Below, piece after piece: positions 388-6,445 of a DNA stretch of 64,000 nucleotides; within the stretch, counting starts at the first letter, position 1, and each line of letters opens with the position of its first letter. The DNA comes from Methanosarcina thermophila TM-1 (GTDB taxonomy: Archaea > Halobacteriota > Methanosarcinia > Methanosarcinales > Methanosarcinaceae). The notes under the pieces were generated by a model that saw only the letters and a program-made list of their open reading frames with translations, searched no databases and was not told the origin of the DNA. The DNA lies in NCBI RefSeq assembly GCF_000969885.1, contig NZ_CP009501.1, forward strand, positions 744,001-808,000, in the 5' to 3' direction. A program made the translations under genes and the position numbers.

Positions 388-3300
388 ATGAGTGAAAAAC
401 TGAGAAGATCTGGTATTGATATTATTGGAGATCTGCCCTGGGGAATACATTTTTGTCAATTCTATCGGACAAAGGATGATTTGACGGAAGTACTTATTCC
501 TTATTTCAAAGCAGGACTGGGGAGTAATGAATTTTGCCTGTGGATCACAGCAGAACCGCTAAGTGCTGAAGAAGCAGAAGAAGCCTTAAGGAAAGCTGTT
601 CCTGACTTTGATGTTTATCTCAAAAATGGTCAGATAGAAATTATTCCCCACAATTACTGGTATGCAAAAGAAGATATTCTTGACTCGGAGAGAGCTTTAA
701 ATGGCTGGGTTGAAAAACTCAGTCAAGCCCAGGAAAATGGCTATGAAGGAGTGAGATTTAGCTGGAACACTTCCTGGCTGAAAAAGGAGGATTGGGGGAA
801 TTTTGTTGATTATGAGAGAAAAACGAATGATGTTGTTAGCAACTACCGTATAATATCTTTATGTACCTATTCTCTTGATGCACACGATGTAACAGAAGCC
901 ATAGCTATTGCCGCAAATCACCAGTTCAGTCTGGTTAAAAAGGAAGGAAAATGGGAGCAGGTAGATAACTCCGGAAGGAAAAATCTCAACTGGCATAAGA
1001 GAATCGAGGATACTTCACCCCAGAATAAGCAGAGTATCAGGTTGAAGCCGGTAAATTTGCTCTCACATGATAAGGAGACGATAAACCTGGAGTTTGCCGA
1101 TATTATTGATACCCAGGCTATACAGTCTCTTATAGAAGATTTTTATAAACTTATTCACATTCCCATTGGTCTGAACGATCTCAAAGGCAATGTTCTGGTA
1201 GGTGTCGGATGGCAGGACATCTGCACGAAATTCCACAGAATTCATCCTGAAACCCGCAAGCACTGCATGGAAAGCGACACAAAACTGTCTTCAGGTGTTT
1301 CTCCTGGCGAGTCTAAGATGTATAAGTGCAAGAATAACATGTGGGATATAGTGACTCCCATTATGGTGGGCGGTCAGCATGTAGGTTATGTCTTCTCAGG
1401 GCAATTCTTTTTTGAGGATGAGCCTCCTAACTACGAGCTTTTCCGAGCCCAGGCAAGGAAATACGGCTTCAATGAGGAAGAATACCTTGCAGCGCTTGAG
1501 AAAGTTCCACGCTTGAGCAGGGAGGCTGTGAAAACAAGCATGTCCTTCCTCATGACGCTTGCCAATATGATCTCGCAGCTAAGCTATAACAATATAAAGC
1601 TAGCTAAATCGCTGGCTGTACGCAGTAAGCTTATTGACGCACAGCAGGAAAGTGAGAAACGTGAGCGAGCTCGCTCAGATGAGCTGGCAGTATTACTGGA
1701 TACTGTCCCTGTAGCTGTGTATATTACACAAGATCCCCAGGCACTTAAGATAACTGGCAACCGGCTCTCCTATGAATGGTTAGGGATTCCTGTGGGTACA
1801 AATTTATCCAAATCCGCTCCTGAAGGCGAGAAACCCGAGATGTTTAAGTTATTCAAGAATGGGGTGGAGATCCAGCCTGAAAAAATGCCGTCACAGATGG
1901 CAGCTAGAGGAATAGAGATAGACAACTGCGAGCTGGATATCTTATCTTCTGACGGCAAAATACGGCACGTATTGGGCAATGCCAGACCTCTGCGTGACGA
2001 GCAGGGAAACCTGCGCGGATCAATTTCTGCATTCATAGATATTACAGAACGCAAAAAAGCAGAAGAAGCACTGGTTAGAAGTGAGAACAAGTTCCGAACG
2101 CTGGCTGAGAATTCCCCTGACGTTATTGTTCGCTATGATAGACAAAAGCGCCACATATATGTTAATCCTGCTGCTGAAGAACCTACTGGTTACCCTCCGG
2201 AAGAAATCATTGGAAAAACCGGCAGTGAACTGGGAATGGACTCTGAGATAGTAAAATTCTGGGAAGAACATATTGAAAAAGTTTTCATTACAGGTAAACC
2301 TGAAGAAATCGAATTCCAATATGAATCACCTGATGGAAAAAAATATTATTTTAATACCAGAATAGTGCCCGAGTTTATTGATGGTGAAGTGATCTCAGCT
2401 CTTGCTATCTCGCGGGATATTACAGATATAAAAAAAGCAGAAATCGGGTTGAAAGAAACACTTGATAATCTGGAAAAATTAGTTGAAAAAAGGACTGAAG
2501 AACTCGAAAAAGCTTATGTCTCGTTAAAAGAAAGCGAAAAAGGTCTTGCTGAAGCTCAAATGATGGCTCATATAGGAAGCTGGGAATGGAATTTTAAGGC
2601 TGATAAAGCATACTGGTCTGAGGAGATGTATCGTATATTCGGGCGAGATCCTGAAAAACTGGCACCGTCTTATAATGAGTATCTAAGTTATATACATCCC
2701 GATGATCGAGAATATGTGGATAATACCCTTAGAGAAGCCACAAATTCGAAATTCTCCAGTATTGAGTACAGGATTTTCCGGGACAACGGAGAAGAAAGGA
2801 TAGTCCAGATGCAGTCTGATGTTATTTTTGATGAGAAAAATGCTCCAATTAAAGTAAAAGGAATAGTTCAGGATATTACTGAACGCAAAAAAGCCGAAAA
2901 AGCTCTTTTGAGCCTTGAAATTGCTCGCAAAAAGGAGATTCATCACAGGATTAAAAATAACCTGCAGGTAATCTCTTCTCTCCTGGATCTTCAGGCTGAA
3001 AATCTCAGTAACAAGAAATGCGTTGAAGAATCTGATGTTCTTAACGCTTTTCAGGAAAGCCAGGATAGAATAATGTCTATTGCCCTGATTCATGAAGAGC
3101 TGCATGAAGGTGGAGGAGACAATACACTGCATTTTTCACAGTACCTTGAAAAGCTCGTTGAGAATCTTTTCCAGACATACAGCCTTGGAAATGCCGATAT
3201 TAACTTAAAGATTGATCTTGAAGACAATATCTTCTTTGATATGGATATTGCTGTCCCACTGGGAATAATTGTCAATGAGCTTGTTTCCAATTCATTAAAA

Positions 3301-3582
3301 TATGCATTTCCAGACAGGAAGAAAGGAGAAATTCGGATTAAATTATTCAAAGAAGCAGAAGCCGAAAATTCAGCCGACAATAATAAAGAAATTACTGGAA
3401 AAGGTGCAGAGTATACCCTGATTATCTCAGATAACGGAGTGGGCATTCCTGAAGAGATTCGTTTGGAAAATTCGGATACTCTTGGTCTACAACTTGTAAA
3501 TATTCTTGTAGATCAGTTAAACGGCGAAATTGAGTTAAAAAGGGATAATGGTACGGAATTTGACATAAAAATAAAGGTATAG
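388..3582 (+). CDS. MEDS-PocR-PAS multisensor histidine kinase
   Basis: A 1064-residue, apparently cytoplasmic sensor kinase without membrane segments. Residues 1 to about 190 match a MEDS domain (methanogen/methylotroph DcmR sensory; early motif PWGIHFCQFY). About 235-415 is a PocR ligand-binding domain with a Cys-rich stretch (CTKFHRIHP, HCMESD, MYKCKNN). Three PAS domains follow (about 430-555, 567-690, 720-840), each closing with a DIT motif, the second and third separated by a coiled coil. The transmitter is of the HisKA_2 type: HHRIKNNLQV at about 852, with the phospho-accepting His inside it, then an HATPase with NELVSNSLKYAF (about 961) and DNGVGIP (about 1014). Such kinases in methanogens are thought to sense methylated or C1 substrates; the ligand here is unknown. 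No response regulator is adjacent. The ATG at 388 has a purine-rich GTGGGGAAAG 17 nt upstream. Confidence 0.9.
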   Translation: MSEKLRRSGIDIIGDLPWGIHFCQFYRTKDDLTEVLIPYFKAGLGSNEFCLWITAEPLSAEEAEEALRKAVPDFDVYLKNGQIEIIPHNYWYAKEDILDSERALNGWVEKLSQAQENGYEGVRFSWNTSWLKKEDWGNFVDYERKTNDVVSNYRIISLCTYSLDAHDVTEAIAIAANHQFSLVKKEGKWEQVDNSGRKNLNWHKRIEDTSPQNKQSIRLKPVNLLSHDKETINLEFADIIDTQAIQSLIEDFYKLIHIPIGLNDLKGNVLVGVGWQDICTKFHRIHPETRKHCMESDTKLSSGVSPGESKMYKCKNNMWDIVTPIMVGGQHVGYVFSGQFFFEDEPPNYELFRAQARKYGFNEEEYLAALEKVPRLSREAVKTSMSFLMTLANMISQLSYNNIKLAKSLAVRSKLIDAQQESEKRERARSDELAVLLDTVPVAVYITQDPQALKITGNRLSYEWLGIPVGTNLSKSAPEGEKPEMFKLFKNGVEIQPEKMPSQMAARGIEIDNCELDILSSDGKIRHVLGNARPLRDEQGNLRGSISAFIDITERKKAEEALVRSENKFRTLAENSPDVIVRYDRQKRHIYVNPAAEEPTGYPPEEIIGKTGSELGMDSEIVKFWEEHIEKVFITGKPEEIEFQYESPDGKKYYFNTRIVPEFIDGEVISALAISRDITDIKKAEIGLKETLDNLEKLVEKRTEELEKAYVSLKESEKGLAEAQMMAHIGSWEWNFKADKAYWSEEMYRIFGRDPEKLAPSYNEYLSYIHPDDREYVDNTLREATNSKFSSIEYRIFRDNGEERIVQMQSDVIFDEKNAPIKVKGIVQDITERKKAEKALLSLEIARKKEIHHRIKNNLQVISSLLDLQAENLSNKKCVEESDVLNAFQESQDRIMSIALIHEELHEGGGDNTLHFSQYLEKLVENLFQTYSLGNADINLKIDLEDNIFFDMDIAVPLGIIVNELVSNSLKYAFPDRKKGEIRIKLFKEAEAENSADNNKEITGKGAEYTLIISDNGVGIPEEIRLENSDTLGLQLVNILVDQLNGEIELKRDNGTEFDIKIKV

Positions 3583-3797: not shown

Positions 3798-4379
3798 TTG
3801 AAAGCTCTGGTTATTATAGATATGACTAACGATTTTGTGTATGACACATACGAATATGAAGGGACTTTATATGAGGGAAAACTTGTAGCTCCGATGGGAA
3901 AAACGATAGTTGACAATATAGCCAGGCTGGTAATAAAGGCAGTAAAAGGGGGAACAGTCAGCGTCTTCAGGCTTCCGAAAGATCATGCTAGCGCTTTTAT
4001 GAATCCCGAACTCGAACTGAAAATTGCAGAGCTTGGAATTGATGAAGTCTTCATAACAGGTCTGGTTGATGAAGTCTGCATATACATTAACAGCATGGGT
4101 TTCCTTGAGAGGGGCTTTAAAACAAATATTGTAAAAGGGTGTACAGCACCTTTCAATGAAGAAAAAGGGAGAGAAGCCTTCAGGGAACTTACGAAATGCG
4201 GTGCAAAAATGGTTGACGATATTCCGGACGACATAAAAGTTATCCTACTTCTTGAGGACGAGCACGATGAAAACTCTGAAGAAATAAAATCAGGAACCTG
4301 GCCGCCCCATAATATGAGAGGGACACCAGGTGCCCTGACCGTAAAACCAATTAGGGACGCGCTTGAGGAAAGGATATAA
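3798..4379 (+). CDS. Isochorismatase-like cysteine hydrolase with permuted metal-binding segment
   Basis: A nicotinamidase/isochorismatase-fold hydrolase. From the TTG at 3798 (AAGGTGG five bases upstream) the protein is 193 residues and begins MKALVIIDMTNDF with catalytic Asp8. Lys61 (RLPKDHASAF) and nucleophile Cys94 (ITGLVDEVCIY) complete the usual triad. In typical family members the metal-binding D-x-H and the WxPHCVxGTxGA motif lie between the Asp and the Lys. Here that interval is missing, and an equivalent segment sits at the extreme C-terminus: D154-E-H156, then WPPHNMRGTPGA with H171. This looks like a segment transposition within one intact frame. Family membership is firm; the substrate is not known. 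In-frame starts at 3750 (TTG) and 3771 (ATG) are possible but lack a better ribosome site. Confidence 0.85.
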   Translation: MKALVIIDMTNDFVYDTYEYEGTLYEGKLVAPMGKTIVDNIARLVIKAVKGGTVSVFRLPKDHASAFMNPELELKIAELGIDEVFITGLVDEVCIYINSMGFLERGFKTNIVKGCTAPFNEEKGREAFRELTKCGAKMVDDIPDDIKVILLLEDEHDENSEEIKSGTWPPHNMRGTPGALTVKPIRDALEERI

Positions 4380-4474: not shown

Positions 4475-6445
4475 TTACTCTTCTGCCAGTTTATGCAATT
4501 CTTTAATCCTTGACTCGACAACATCCATGGCATCTTCAAAAAGCTGCCTGTTGATTTCGATCCCGAAGTGTTTCCTGAGTTTTGCTTCAGGAGGCATTGT
4601 GGAGCCTGCCGAAAGGTACGCTATATAGTTTTTATTGAAAATTTCAGGATCTTTCCTGTACTGTTTGAAGAGAGCGAGGGTTATTGCCTTCGAAACCGCG
4701 TAATTGAAGGTATAGTAGTTGCTTGTCAGGTAAATATGGTTGATGTAGGTCCATTCCGCAGAATCTTCAGGGTAATACTCAACTGAAGGGCTCCTGTACT
4801 CTTTTGATAGACTTGTCCAGATTGCATTGAGTTCTGCTCCGGTTACGTTTTCTTTTTCTGCACACAGCTTATGCGCTTTATATTCGAATTCCGTGATTAG
4901 CGGCTGCCTGGTAAAGAAGTTCTGGTAATCATCGATTTGCTGGGAAAGCACGGCAATTGCGGTAGCCCTATCCGAAGTCTCAACAACGTGATCAACAAAA
5001 AGTTCTTCGTTAAAAGTGGAAGGGATCTCCATCTCATAGATCGTGCCTGAGCAGTAAAGGTAATCCACGGAATTGCTCATTAGATAGAAATTAAAAGCGT
5101 GCCCCAGCTCATGTGTCAGAGTTTTCTGGTCTTTTAAAAGACCGTCGTAGTTCATAAAGATAAGGGGCGGAGCTTTAAGGGCGCAGGAGTCGGTACAGTA
5201 GCCTCCTGGCTGTTTTCCGTGTTCAGGGTCAGGATATACGTCTATGAAGCTGCCTGTTACCATTTTTAAAAAGATTTCTTTAAAACTCGGGTCCATCCTA
5301 GAATAGGATTTCTGAACTTCTTTTAAGGCATCTATGTAAGCATACTTTTTCCCGGGCTGATCTGTCAACTGCAACATAAGATCGTATGGTTTTAGCACAT
5401 CAACCCCTAGTTTTTTCCTCCTGAATTCGTTATAGTCCTCAAATACCCCTTTTTTCTGCTTGAAAACTGTGTTCATGTCATCAATCTGAGCATGGGTGAG
5501 ATAGGAATTATACAGGGTATAATCATAGTAGTCCGCGTATTTTAGCTCCTTTGCAACAAGATCATCAAGCCGGGATTTCCTTGAATAAAGAGCTGCCATT
5601 GAATCGGACTCATTTATCAGGTGATAGAACCTCTTTTCATAACACCTTCTCCTGTTTTCCCGGCTTGGATCGGTTGAAAGCAGGGTATTATAAGACTGAG
5701 AATTGATGGAAAATTTCTCTCCGTTCTCAAGTGTTATTTCTCCTGCCTTTGTGACTTTGTTCGTGATTTGAGAAAGAGCCTCTGTCTCAAGTTTCATGCG
5801 CTGGTTTTCAAGTTCTGCGAGATACATAGCCTGAGACTCATCCACTGGCCTGTGATCTGCAAACCTCATATAATTGGCTTCAAGATAAGCCCTGTAGAAC
5901 TCAAGTCCAGGTTCTTCGGAAAAGAGCCTGTCCCATTCCTCCTTCCCGAGCGAGGTCAATTTTACGGCTGAAAAAGCTACAGCTTTCTTGTATTCGGTAA
6001 ACAGATCCTGTGTACTCCTTACCAAGGAAATAAAAAACGGCTCGTTTACGTTTTTACTGAGTTGAGTATGTGAGTAGGTGTACAGAATCTCTAGTGATTT
6101 TGAATACTCCTTTTCACTTTCCAGAAAATTAAGTAAATCGGACCCCGACAGCTTTTCAAATTTTGGACTGAAAGTCTCGTTTATCTCTTGCGGTATCTTT
6201 TTCAGTCTCTCAAGCTCTTCCGAAGCATCTTCCCTGCTGCTAAAAAGATACGCATCATCCCATTCCGTTGTAACCTCATCAGGATTAAACTCTTCTGATG
6301 CAAATTTTTCATTTGTGATTTCAGAAGATCTTTCTGTCGTTTCCGAAGTCCTGCCTTCCGGAAAAACTGCAAAGGACAGCAATGCTCCGAGAGCGAGGGA
6401 CCCCTTTAATTTTCCTGAGAATATAAGCCTTTTAATTGAATTCAT
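4475..6445 (-). CDS. pepF: Secreted M3 family oligoendopeptidase F-like zinc peptidase
   Basis: A 656-residue metallopeptidase of the M3B (PepF) family, which cleaves short peptides. The zinc site HELGH is at about residues 445-449 in TLTHELGHAFNFYL, followed about 25 residues later by the third-ligand region (YEMEIPSTFNEE). The N-terminus (SLALGALLSFAVF after a basic start) looks like a signal peptide or membrane anchor, so it probably acts outside the membrane, unlike most cytoplasmic PepF. The body length of about 600 residues fits the family. It faces the cysteine hydrolase gene and is transcribed away from the MscS gene. Function is firm from the zinc motif; export is inferred from the hydrophobic N-terminus. 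Confidence 0.9.
   Translation of the reverse strand: MNSIKRLIFSGKLKGSLALGALLSFAVFPEGRTSETTERSSEITNEKFASEEFNPDEVTTEWDDAYLFSSREDASEELERLKKIPQEINETFSPKFEKLSGSDLLNFLESEKEYSKSLEILYTYSHTQLSKNVNEPFFISLVRSTQDLFTEYKKAVAFSAVKLTSLGKEEWDRLFSEEPGLEFYRAYLEANYMRFADHRPVDESQAMYLAELENQRMKLETEALSQITNKVTKAGEITLENGEKFSINSQSYNTLLSTDPSRENRRRCYEKRFYHLINESDSMAALYSRKSRLDDLVAKELKYADYYDYTLYNSYLTHAQIDDMNTVFKQKKGVFEDYNEFRRKKLGVDVLKPYDLMLQLTDQPGKKYAYIDALKEVQKSYSRMDPSFKEIFLKMVTGSFIDVYPDPEHGKQPGGYCTDSCALKAPPLIFMNYDGLLKDQKTLTHELGHAFNFYLMSNSVDYLYCSGTIYEMEIPSTFNEELFVDHVVETSDRATAIAVLSQQIDDYQNFFTRQPLITEFEYKAHKLCAEKENVTGAELNAIWTSLSKEYRSPSVEYYPEDSAEWTYINHIYLTSNYYTFNYAVSKAITLALFKQYRKDPEIFNKNYIAYLSAGSTMPPEAKLRKHFGIEINRQLFEDAMDVVESRIKELHKLAEE

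Follow-up and report, generated by a model that had tools for sequence, protein, structure and literature searches.

Locus and features of the gene

The DNA analyzed, referred to as the window, comprises 64,000 nucleotides (G000:C1:744001-808000) of a complete 3.13-Mb Methanosarcina chromosome. The gene for a predicted cysteine hydrolase is located at window positions 3798 to 4379, starts with the codon TTG at 3798 and ends with TAA at 4377-4379, and the motif GGTG directly 5' of the start codon is shared by nearly all orthologues. The gene stands alone on the plus strand and its syntenic neighbours, an MscS-type channel gene and others, lie on the minus strand, and no operon clue to the function of the hydrolase was found at the locus. 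Upstream, window positions 388-3582 encode a large multi-domain sensor-kinase-like protein in which PAS-like repeats and a histidine-kinase-like end can be recognized by eye, and close relatives of this protein adjoin the hydrolase in few of the compared loci. On the minus strand, positions 4475-6445 encode an M3-type oligopeptidase-like protein with the motif HELGH; such a gene occurs near the hydrolase in part of the genus only, and elsewhere an MscS-like gene adjoins the hydrolase. The features of the hydrolase gene are as follows.

3798..4379, plus strand: permuted isochorismatase-like / nicotinamidase-type cysteine hydrolase of 193 aa, TTG start, TAA stop (ORF, upstream GGTG, PF00857, orthologues with the same order)
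3798..3953, plus strand: segment A, residues 1-52; beta1 with Asp8 (predicted general base), F13, hairpin 17-26 and helix 34-50 (canonical HMM 1-43, DSSP of the model, D8 in 28/28)
3954..4220, plus strand: segment C, residues 53-141; beta3 with Lys61, beta4, GLVDEVC with Cys94, beta5 and beta6 (PF00857, residues 59-140 on 91-172; K61 and C94 in 28/28)
4221..4235, plus strand: new junction IPDDI, residues 142-146; joins beta6 to the moved beta2, P143 invariant
4236..4343, plus strand: moved segment B, residues 147-182; beta2 and metal loop, KVILLLEDEHDENSEEIKSGTWPPHNMRGTPGALTV, with D154, H156, W168 and H171 (HMM and PDB alignments, dN/dS 0.05-0.07, D154/H156/H171/W168 in 28/28)
4344..4376, plus strand: C-terminal helix KPIRDALEERI, residues 183-193; least constrained part (DSSP helix 183-190, dN/dS 0.23)

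Residues 17-26 (window 3846-3875) form an insertion of about nine residues after beta1 relative to canonical nicotinamidases and are predicted to adopt a beta-hairpin, around which Y18, Y25, G27, L29, A31 and P32 are invariant; possibly this hairpin is a flap specific to the permuted family. At residues 90-95 (window 4065-4082), all orthologues have D/E-E (GLVDEVC or GLVEEVC) in place of the usual T/N-D/N of TDxC/TNxC, and position 90 of the hydrolase is Val.

Order of the segments along the chain

Nicotinamidase-type proteins can be divided into piece A, beta1 and a helix with the catalytic Asp, piece B, beta2 and the metal loop, and piece C, beta3 to beta6 with the catalytic Lys and Cys. In PncA from Mycobacterium tuberculosis (MtPncA) roles have been described for D8, K96, C138, D49, H51, H71, W68 and F13, and the counterpart residues occur in the order D8, D49, H51, W68, H71, K96, C138 (PMC3025910), so that the metal and pocket segment should precede the Lys. 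An initial annotation of the locus had stated that the order Asp8-Lys61-Cys94 is kept in the hydrolase and that the metal segment is displaced to the C-terminus, and both statements proved correct, including the residue numbers: D154, H156, W168, H171 and G175-A179 are located after Cys94. The motif reads D154-E155-H156, followed by W168-P-P-H171-N-M-R-G-T-P-G-A179, and the segment of beta2 and metal loop (DEH...WPPHNMRGTPGA) occupies residues ~147-182, C-terminal to Cys94 and not between Asp8 and Lys61. The hydrolase therefore has the strand order beta1-beta3-beta4-beta5-beta6-beta2 and departs from the usual collinear order of beta1 to beta6. Collinear order is the usual arrangement of the family and no criterion of homology, and from its sequence the hydrolase is filed as a permuted variant.

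With the chain in its native order, Pfam family PF00857 was matched with 60.8 bits (cut-off 27), residues 59-140 aligning to positions 91-172 of the 175-position profile, which places the protein in this superfamily; its Asp-Lys-Cys triad is in order. When the order was restored, the hit rose to 76.7 bits and became a single stretch, residues 3-192 on 2-170, instead of two pieces. Collinear HMM annotation credits the hydrolase with its second half only. Comparison with PDB nicotinamidases by phmmer yielded three non-collinear pieces (residues 2-59, 55-133 and 131-179), of which the third maps between the first two along the target chain, and the best domain score with PDB entry 3s2s increased from 30.5 bits in native order to 58.8 bits with the order restored.

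An HMM was also built from 21 canonical archaeal nicotinamidase-type proteins and every cut-and-paste of the C-terminal block was scored with it. Residues 1-51 of the hydrolase map to model positions 1-43, residues 61-134 to 92-165 and residues 128-184 to 26-80, and the best domain in native order reached 39.2 bits. When the block that begins at residue ~152 was pasted behind residue ~58, the score was 97.6 bits over model positions 1-168; in a control in which the tail was shuffled before insertion, scores of 61.0±7.8 bits with a maximum of 76.8 (n=500) were obtained. The score peaked for insertion after residues 54-58, which is the canonical place. The gain on re-ordering supports the proposal of the initial annotation that a segmental permutation has occurred within a folded family.

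PncA from P. horikoshii (1ILW/1IM5), S. mutans (3S2S) and M. tuberculosis (3PL1) shares with the hydrolase the Asp-Lys-Cys triad, the D-x-H...WPxH...GTxGA segment, equivalents of F13 and W68, and the six-stranded fold, which is predicted in the case of the hydrolase; the cores superpose at Z 12-14. Unlike these proteins, the hydrolase carries beta2 and the metal segment C-terminally (A-C-B), has nine additional residues forming a conserved hairpin after beta1 and shows DEVC/EEVC in place of TDxC/TNxC. The closest canonical-order relatives among the sampled archaeal genomes are Thermococcales-type nicotinamidases (L085-L105), which are 25-30% identical end to end to the hydrolase with order restored, but whose order is canonical and among which no permuted member was seen. 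Other Methanosarcina PF00857 paralogues (for example L029, L032 and L112) belong to the same superfamily but have the canonical order; those that were read lack D-x-H...WPPH, and their closest pieces are 24-33% identical.

Distribution and conservation

When 186 genomes of the order were searched, the gene with A-C-B order was detected in 30 of them, namely 26 of the 31 Methanosarcina genomes and all four genomes with a hit in the sister genus, one Methanosarcina copy being split across two contig ends. In the other sampled genera of the order no full match was present among these 186 genomes and only two weak matches to the Lys-Cys half were obtained; a phylum-wide search gave only canonical Lys-Cys-half matches outside the two genera. 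A contig scan returned only Methanosarcina or Methanosarcinaceae records and two bins labelled Euryarchaeota archaeon, and tblastn searches of phages and plasmids gave only partial hits, which fell on short or collinear N-to-Cys stretches and in no case covered 80% of the query.

In an alignment of 28 proteins, D8, K61, C94, D154, H156, W168 and H171 are invariant, F13 is present in 27, and the spacing from V139 to residue 147 is 7-8 residues. Median pairwise dN/dS was lowest in the metal segment (0.05) and in the link plus B (0.07), followed by C (0.12), A (0.19) and the last helix (0.23); the moved tail segment (0.05-0.07) is therefore under tighter constraint than any other part of the hydrolase. 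Homologues with an absent or random tail, which would have spoken against a stable permuted family, were not what was found: the tail is the best-conserved part, the order is retained in relatives, and dN/dS lies well below 1. In the genomes searched, the permuted order is confined to Methanosarcina and one sister genus and does not extend to methanogens at large. A simple deletion combined with a random tail is ruled out by the HMM re-ordering test together with the conservation of the tail. In one sister-genus genome, a decayed second copy covering residues 104-192 with three stop codons lies beside the intact copy (G359:C40:15505-15771).

Kind of permutation and probable origin

As read from the sequence, the kind of REARRANGEMENT is A-C-B versus canonical A-B-C and is non-circular. 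A circular permutation is excluded, as A-C-B is no rotation (B-C-A or C-A-B) of the canonical order and the N-terminal element stays put, and for the same reason the usual duplicate-and-trim route alone is insufficient. A plausible path leads from A-B-C to A-B-C-B by partial duplication and then to A-C-B by loss of the first B; an intermediate of the A-B-C-B form was not seen among the genomes searched. The re-ordering would have happened a single time, in an ancestor that Methanosarcina shares with the sister genus. The MscS-like gene downstream and the genes that follow it remain syntenic, which suggests one event and vertical descent from it.

Non-circular permutations of a protein fold have been described as rare (PMC3863775). 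The major capsid protein of phage BPP-1, a non-circularly permuted HK97 fold, resembles the present case in that two inner elements are swapped and the N-terminal element is kept (PMC3863775). It is a structural protein whose sequence has no recognizable similarity to canonical relatives, whereas the permutation of the hydrolase can be recognized from its sequence and affects residues of the active site. No report of a permuted isochorismatase or nicotinamidase was found in the literature searched, and the hydrolase is best regarded as a new topological variant within a known family of enzymes. Here a non-circular permutation has become fixed in a catalytic domain, and the two pieces that changed places hold catalytic and metal residues; the event is legible in the sequence and can be placed in the ancestor shared by two archaeal genera. 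Methanosarcina includes laboratory strains that are genetically tractable, and the hydrolase allows a direct test of chain order versus folding versus oligomer swapping.

Structure model and probable packing of the tail

AlphaFold2 run with the orthologues alone (genus-level alignment) gave a model with pLDDT 60.6, pTM 0.62 and a TM of ~0.4 to nicotinamidases, which was discarded. In a second alignment, canonical N, B and C fragments were supplied as separate rows, so that the columns were deep and the pieces unjoined, and a model with pLDDT 90.4 and pTM 0.88 was obtained; the canonical rows may have steered this confident model, which would then partly reflect learned canonical structure. Residues 1-141 of the model superpose on P. 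horikoshii nicotinamidase 1ilw with Z 14.0 and 2.1 Å over 131 residues, skipping ~47 target residues, as would be the case if that stretch lacked B, and residues 1-146 superpose on many PF00857 members with Z 11.6-14.1 and 2.0-2.7 Å. The superposition of residues 1-141 implies that a slot for beta2 should still exist between beta1 and beta3. The model contains a nine-residue strand, residues 146-154, which ends at D154, and shows beta3 (residues 55-61) as a paired strand. As the only canonical neighbour of beta3 is beta2, the tail strand is likely the partner of beta3, and we infer from the model that it likely fills the beta2 slot. The proximity of D154, H156 and H171 to Cys94, which the initial annotation proposed as a check, thereby has indirect support only.

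The isochorismatase-like fold is a parallel sheet with strand order 3-2-1-4-5-6. In the model beta6 extends to residue 139 and the tail strand begins with 146, leaving a link of ~6-7 residues that, by a rough estimate, must span ~25 Å from the top of sheet-edge beta6 to the bottom of beta2, four strands off. The link may run closely along the sheet in cis, or the tail may be handed over to an adjacent subunit. In the latter case, beta2 and the metal loop would complete the sheet and active site of the partner and a dimer or oligomer would be obligatory; the link would be too short for cis, and the active sites would be composite, made of the triad of one subunit and the metal site of its neighbour. 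Such a swap is a possibility that we regard as real but less probable, for which the link, near the limit of an extended chain for the estimated distance, can be adduced, as can the C-terminal helices of YcaC, which touch the neighbouring monomer (PMC4519933). Against it, confidence in the single-chain model stays high across the link, with a block mean pLDDT of 95 for residues 141-150. Single-chain predictions often render swapped proteins as closed monomers.

Proposed enzyme and function

We consider it probable that the protein is a nicotinamidase-type cysteine hydrolase that depends on a metal, that a single re-ordering of its chain produced A-C-B, and that its fold and active site have been restored. 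Strand 146-154 at the C-terminus would take the empty beta2 slot between beta1 and beta3, D154, H156 and H171 would hold the metal, and W168 would line the pocket opposite the Asp8-Lys61-Cys94 triad. Cys94 would then attack the amide carbon, an acyl-enzyme would form in the oxyanion hole provided by GLVDEVC, and hydrolysis would be completed by a water bound to the metal. The metal ligands of PncA, D-x-H and the His of WPxH, have invariant counterparts in the hydrolase, located after the Cys, and so has the pocket residue W68, F13 being conserved in all proteins but one. Judged by its sequence, the hydrolase is most likely a working metal-dependent nicotinamidase-like amidase.

It appears improbable that the core lost the canonical beta2 and metal segment and that a metal-binding appendage, unrelated or re-recruited, forms the tail without rebuilding the canonical site, in a protein with another activity or a regulatory role. 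In favour of this reading, the tail alone scores only 12.4 bits on the canonical HMM and the oxyanion/TDxC motif is altered. Against it, beta2, DxH and WPxH..GTxGA follow one another in the tail as they do in canonical B and both have the same end point, the score rises by about 58 bits once the order is restored, the tail is under the strongest constraint, and catalytic and metal residues are co-conserved in all 28 proteins. An artefact, be it an assembly or sequencing error, a frameshift or a pseudogene, is refuted with near certainty by 28 full-length proteins from different genomes with identical order under purifying selection.

With regard to the substrate of the re-ordered hydrolase, we infer that nicotinamide is the most likely candidate, which would feed PncB of the same genomes, and its deamidation for NAD salvage is the leading guess from the sequence. 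Scores against the NCBIfam equivalog PRK11609 were 26.5 bits native and 27.1 restored, below the cut-off of 174 bits; as NCBIfam scores lie far under equivalog cut-offs, the motif is DEVC/EEVC and position 90 is Val, the substrate may be another small amide. No canonical nicotinamidase was seen in this genome, of which the permuted gene is the sole PF00857 member. Nicotinate phosphoribosyltransferase PncB (PF04095) is encoded in 30 of 31 Methanosarcina genomes. Co-occurrence is uninformative for a link to NAD salvage, as some species without the hydrolase gene also retain PncB. In the genome studied here, a PncB family gene lies at G000:C1:737195-737845, ~6-7 kb before the window and ~10 kb from the hydrolase, and in several other Methanosarcina genomes (G001, G007, G021, G022 and G029) PncB is located on the same contig, within roughly 10-33 kb of the hydrolase.
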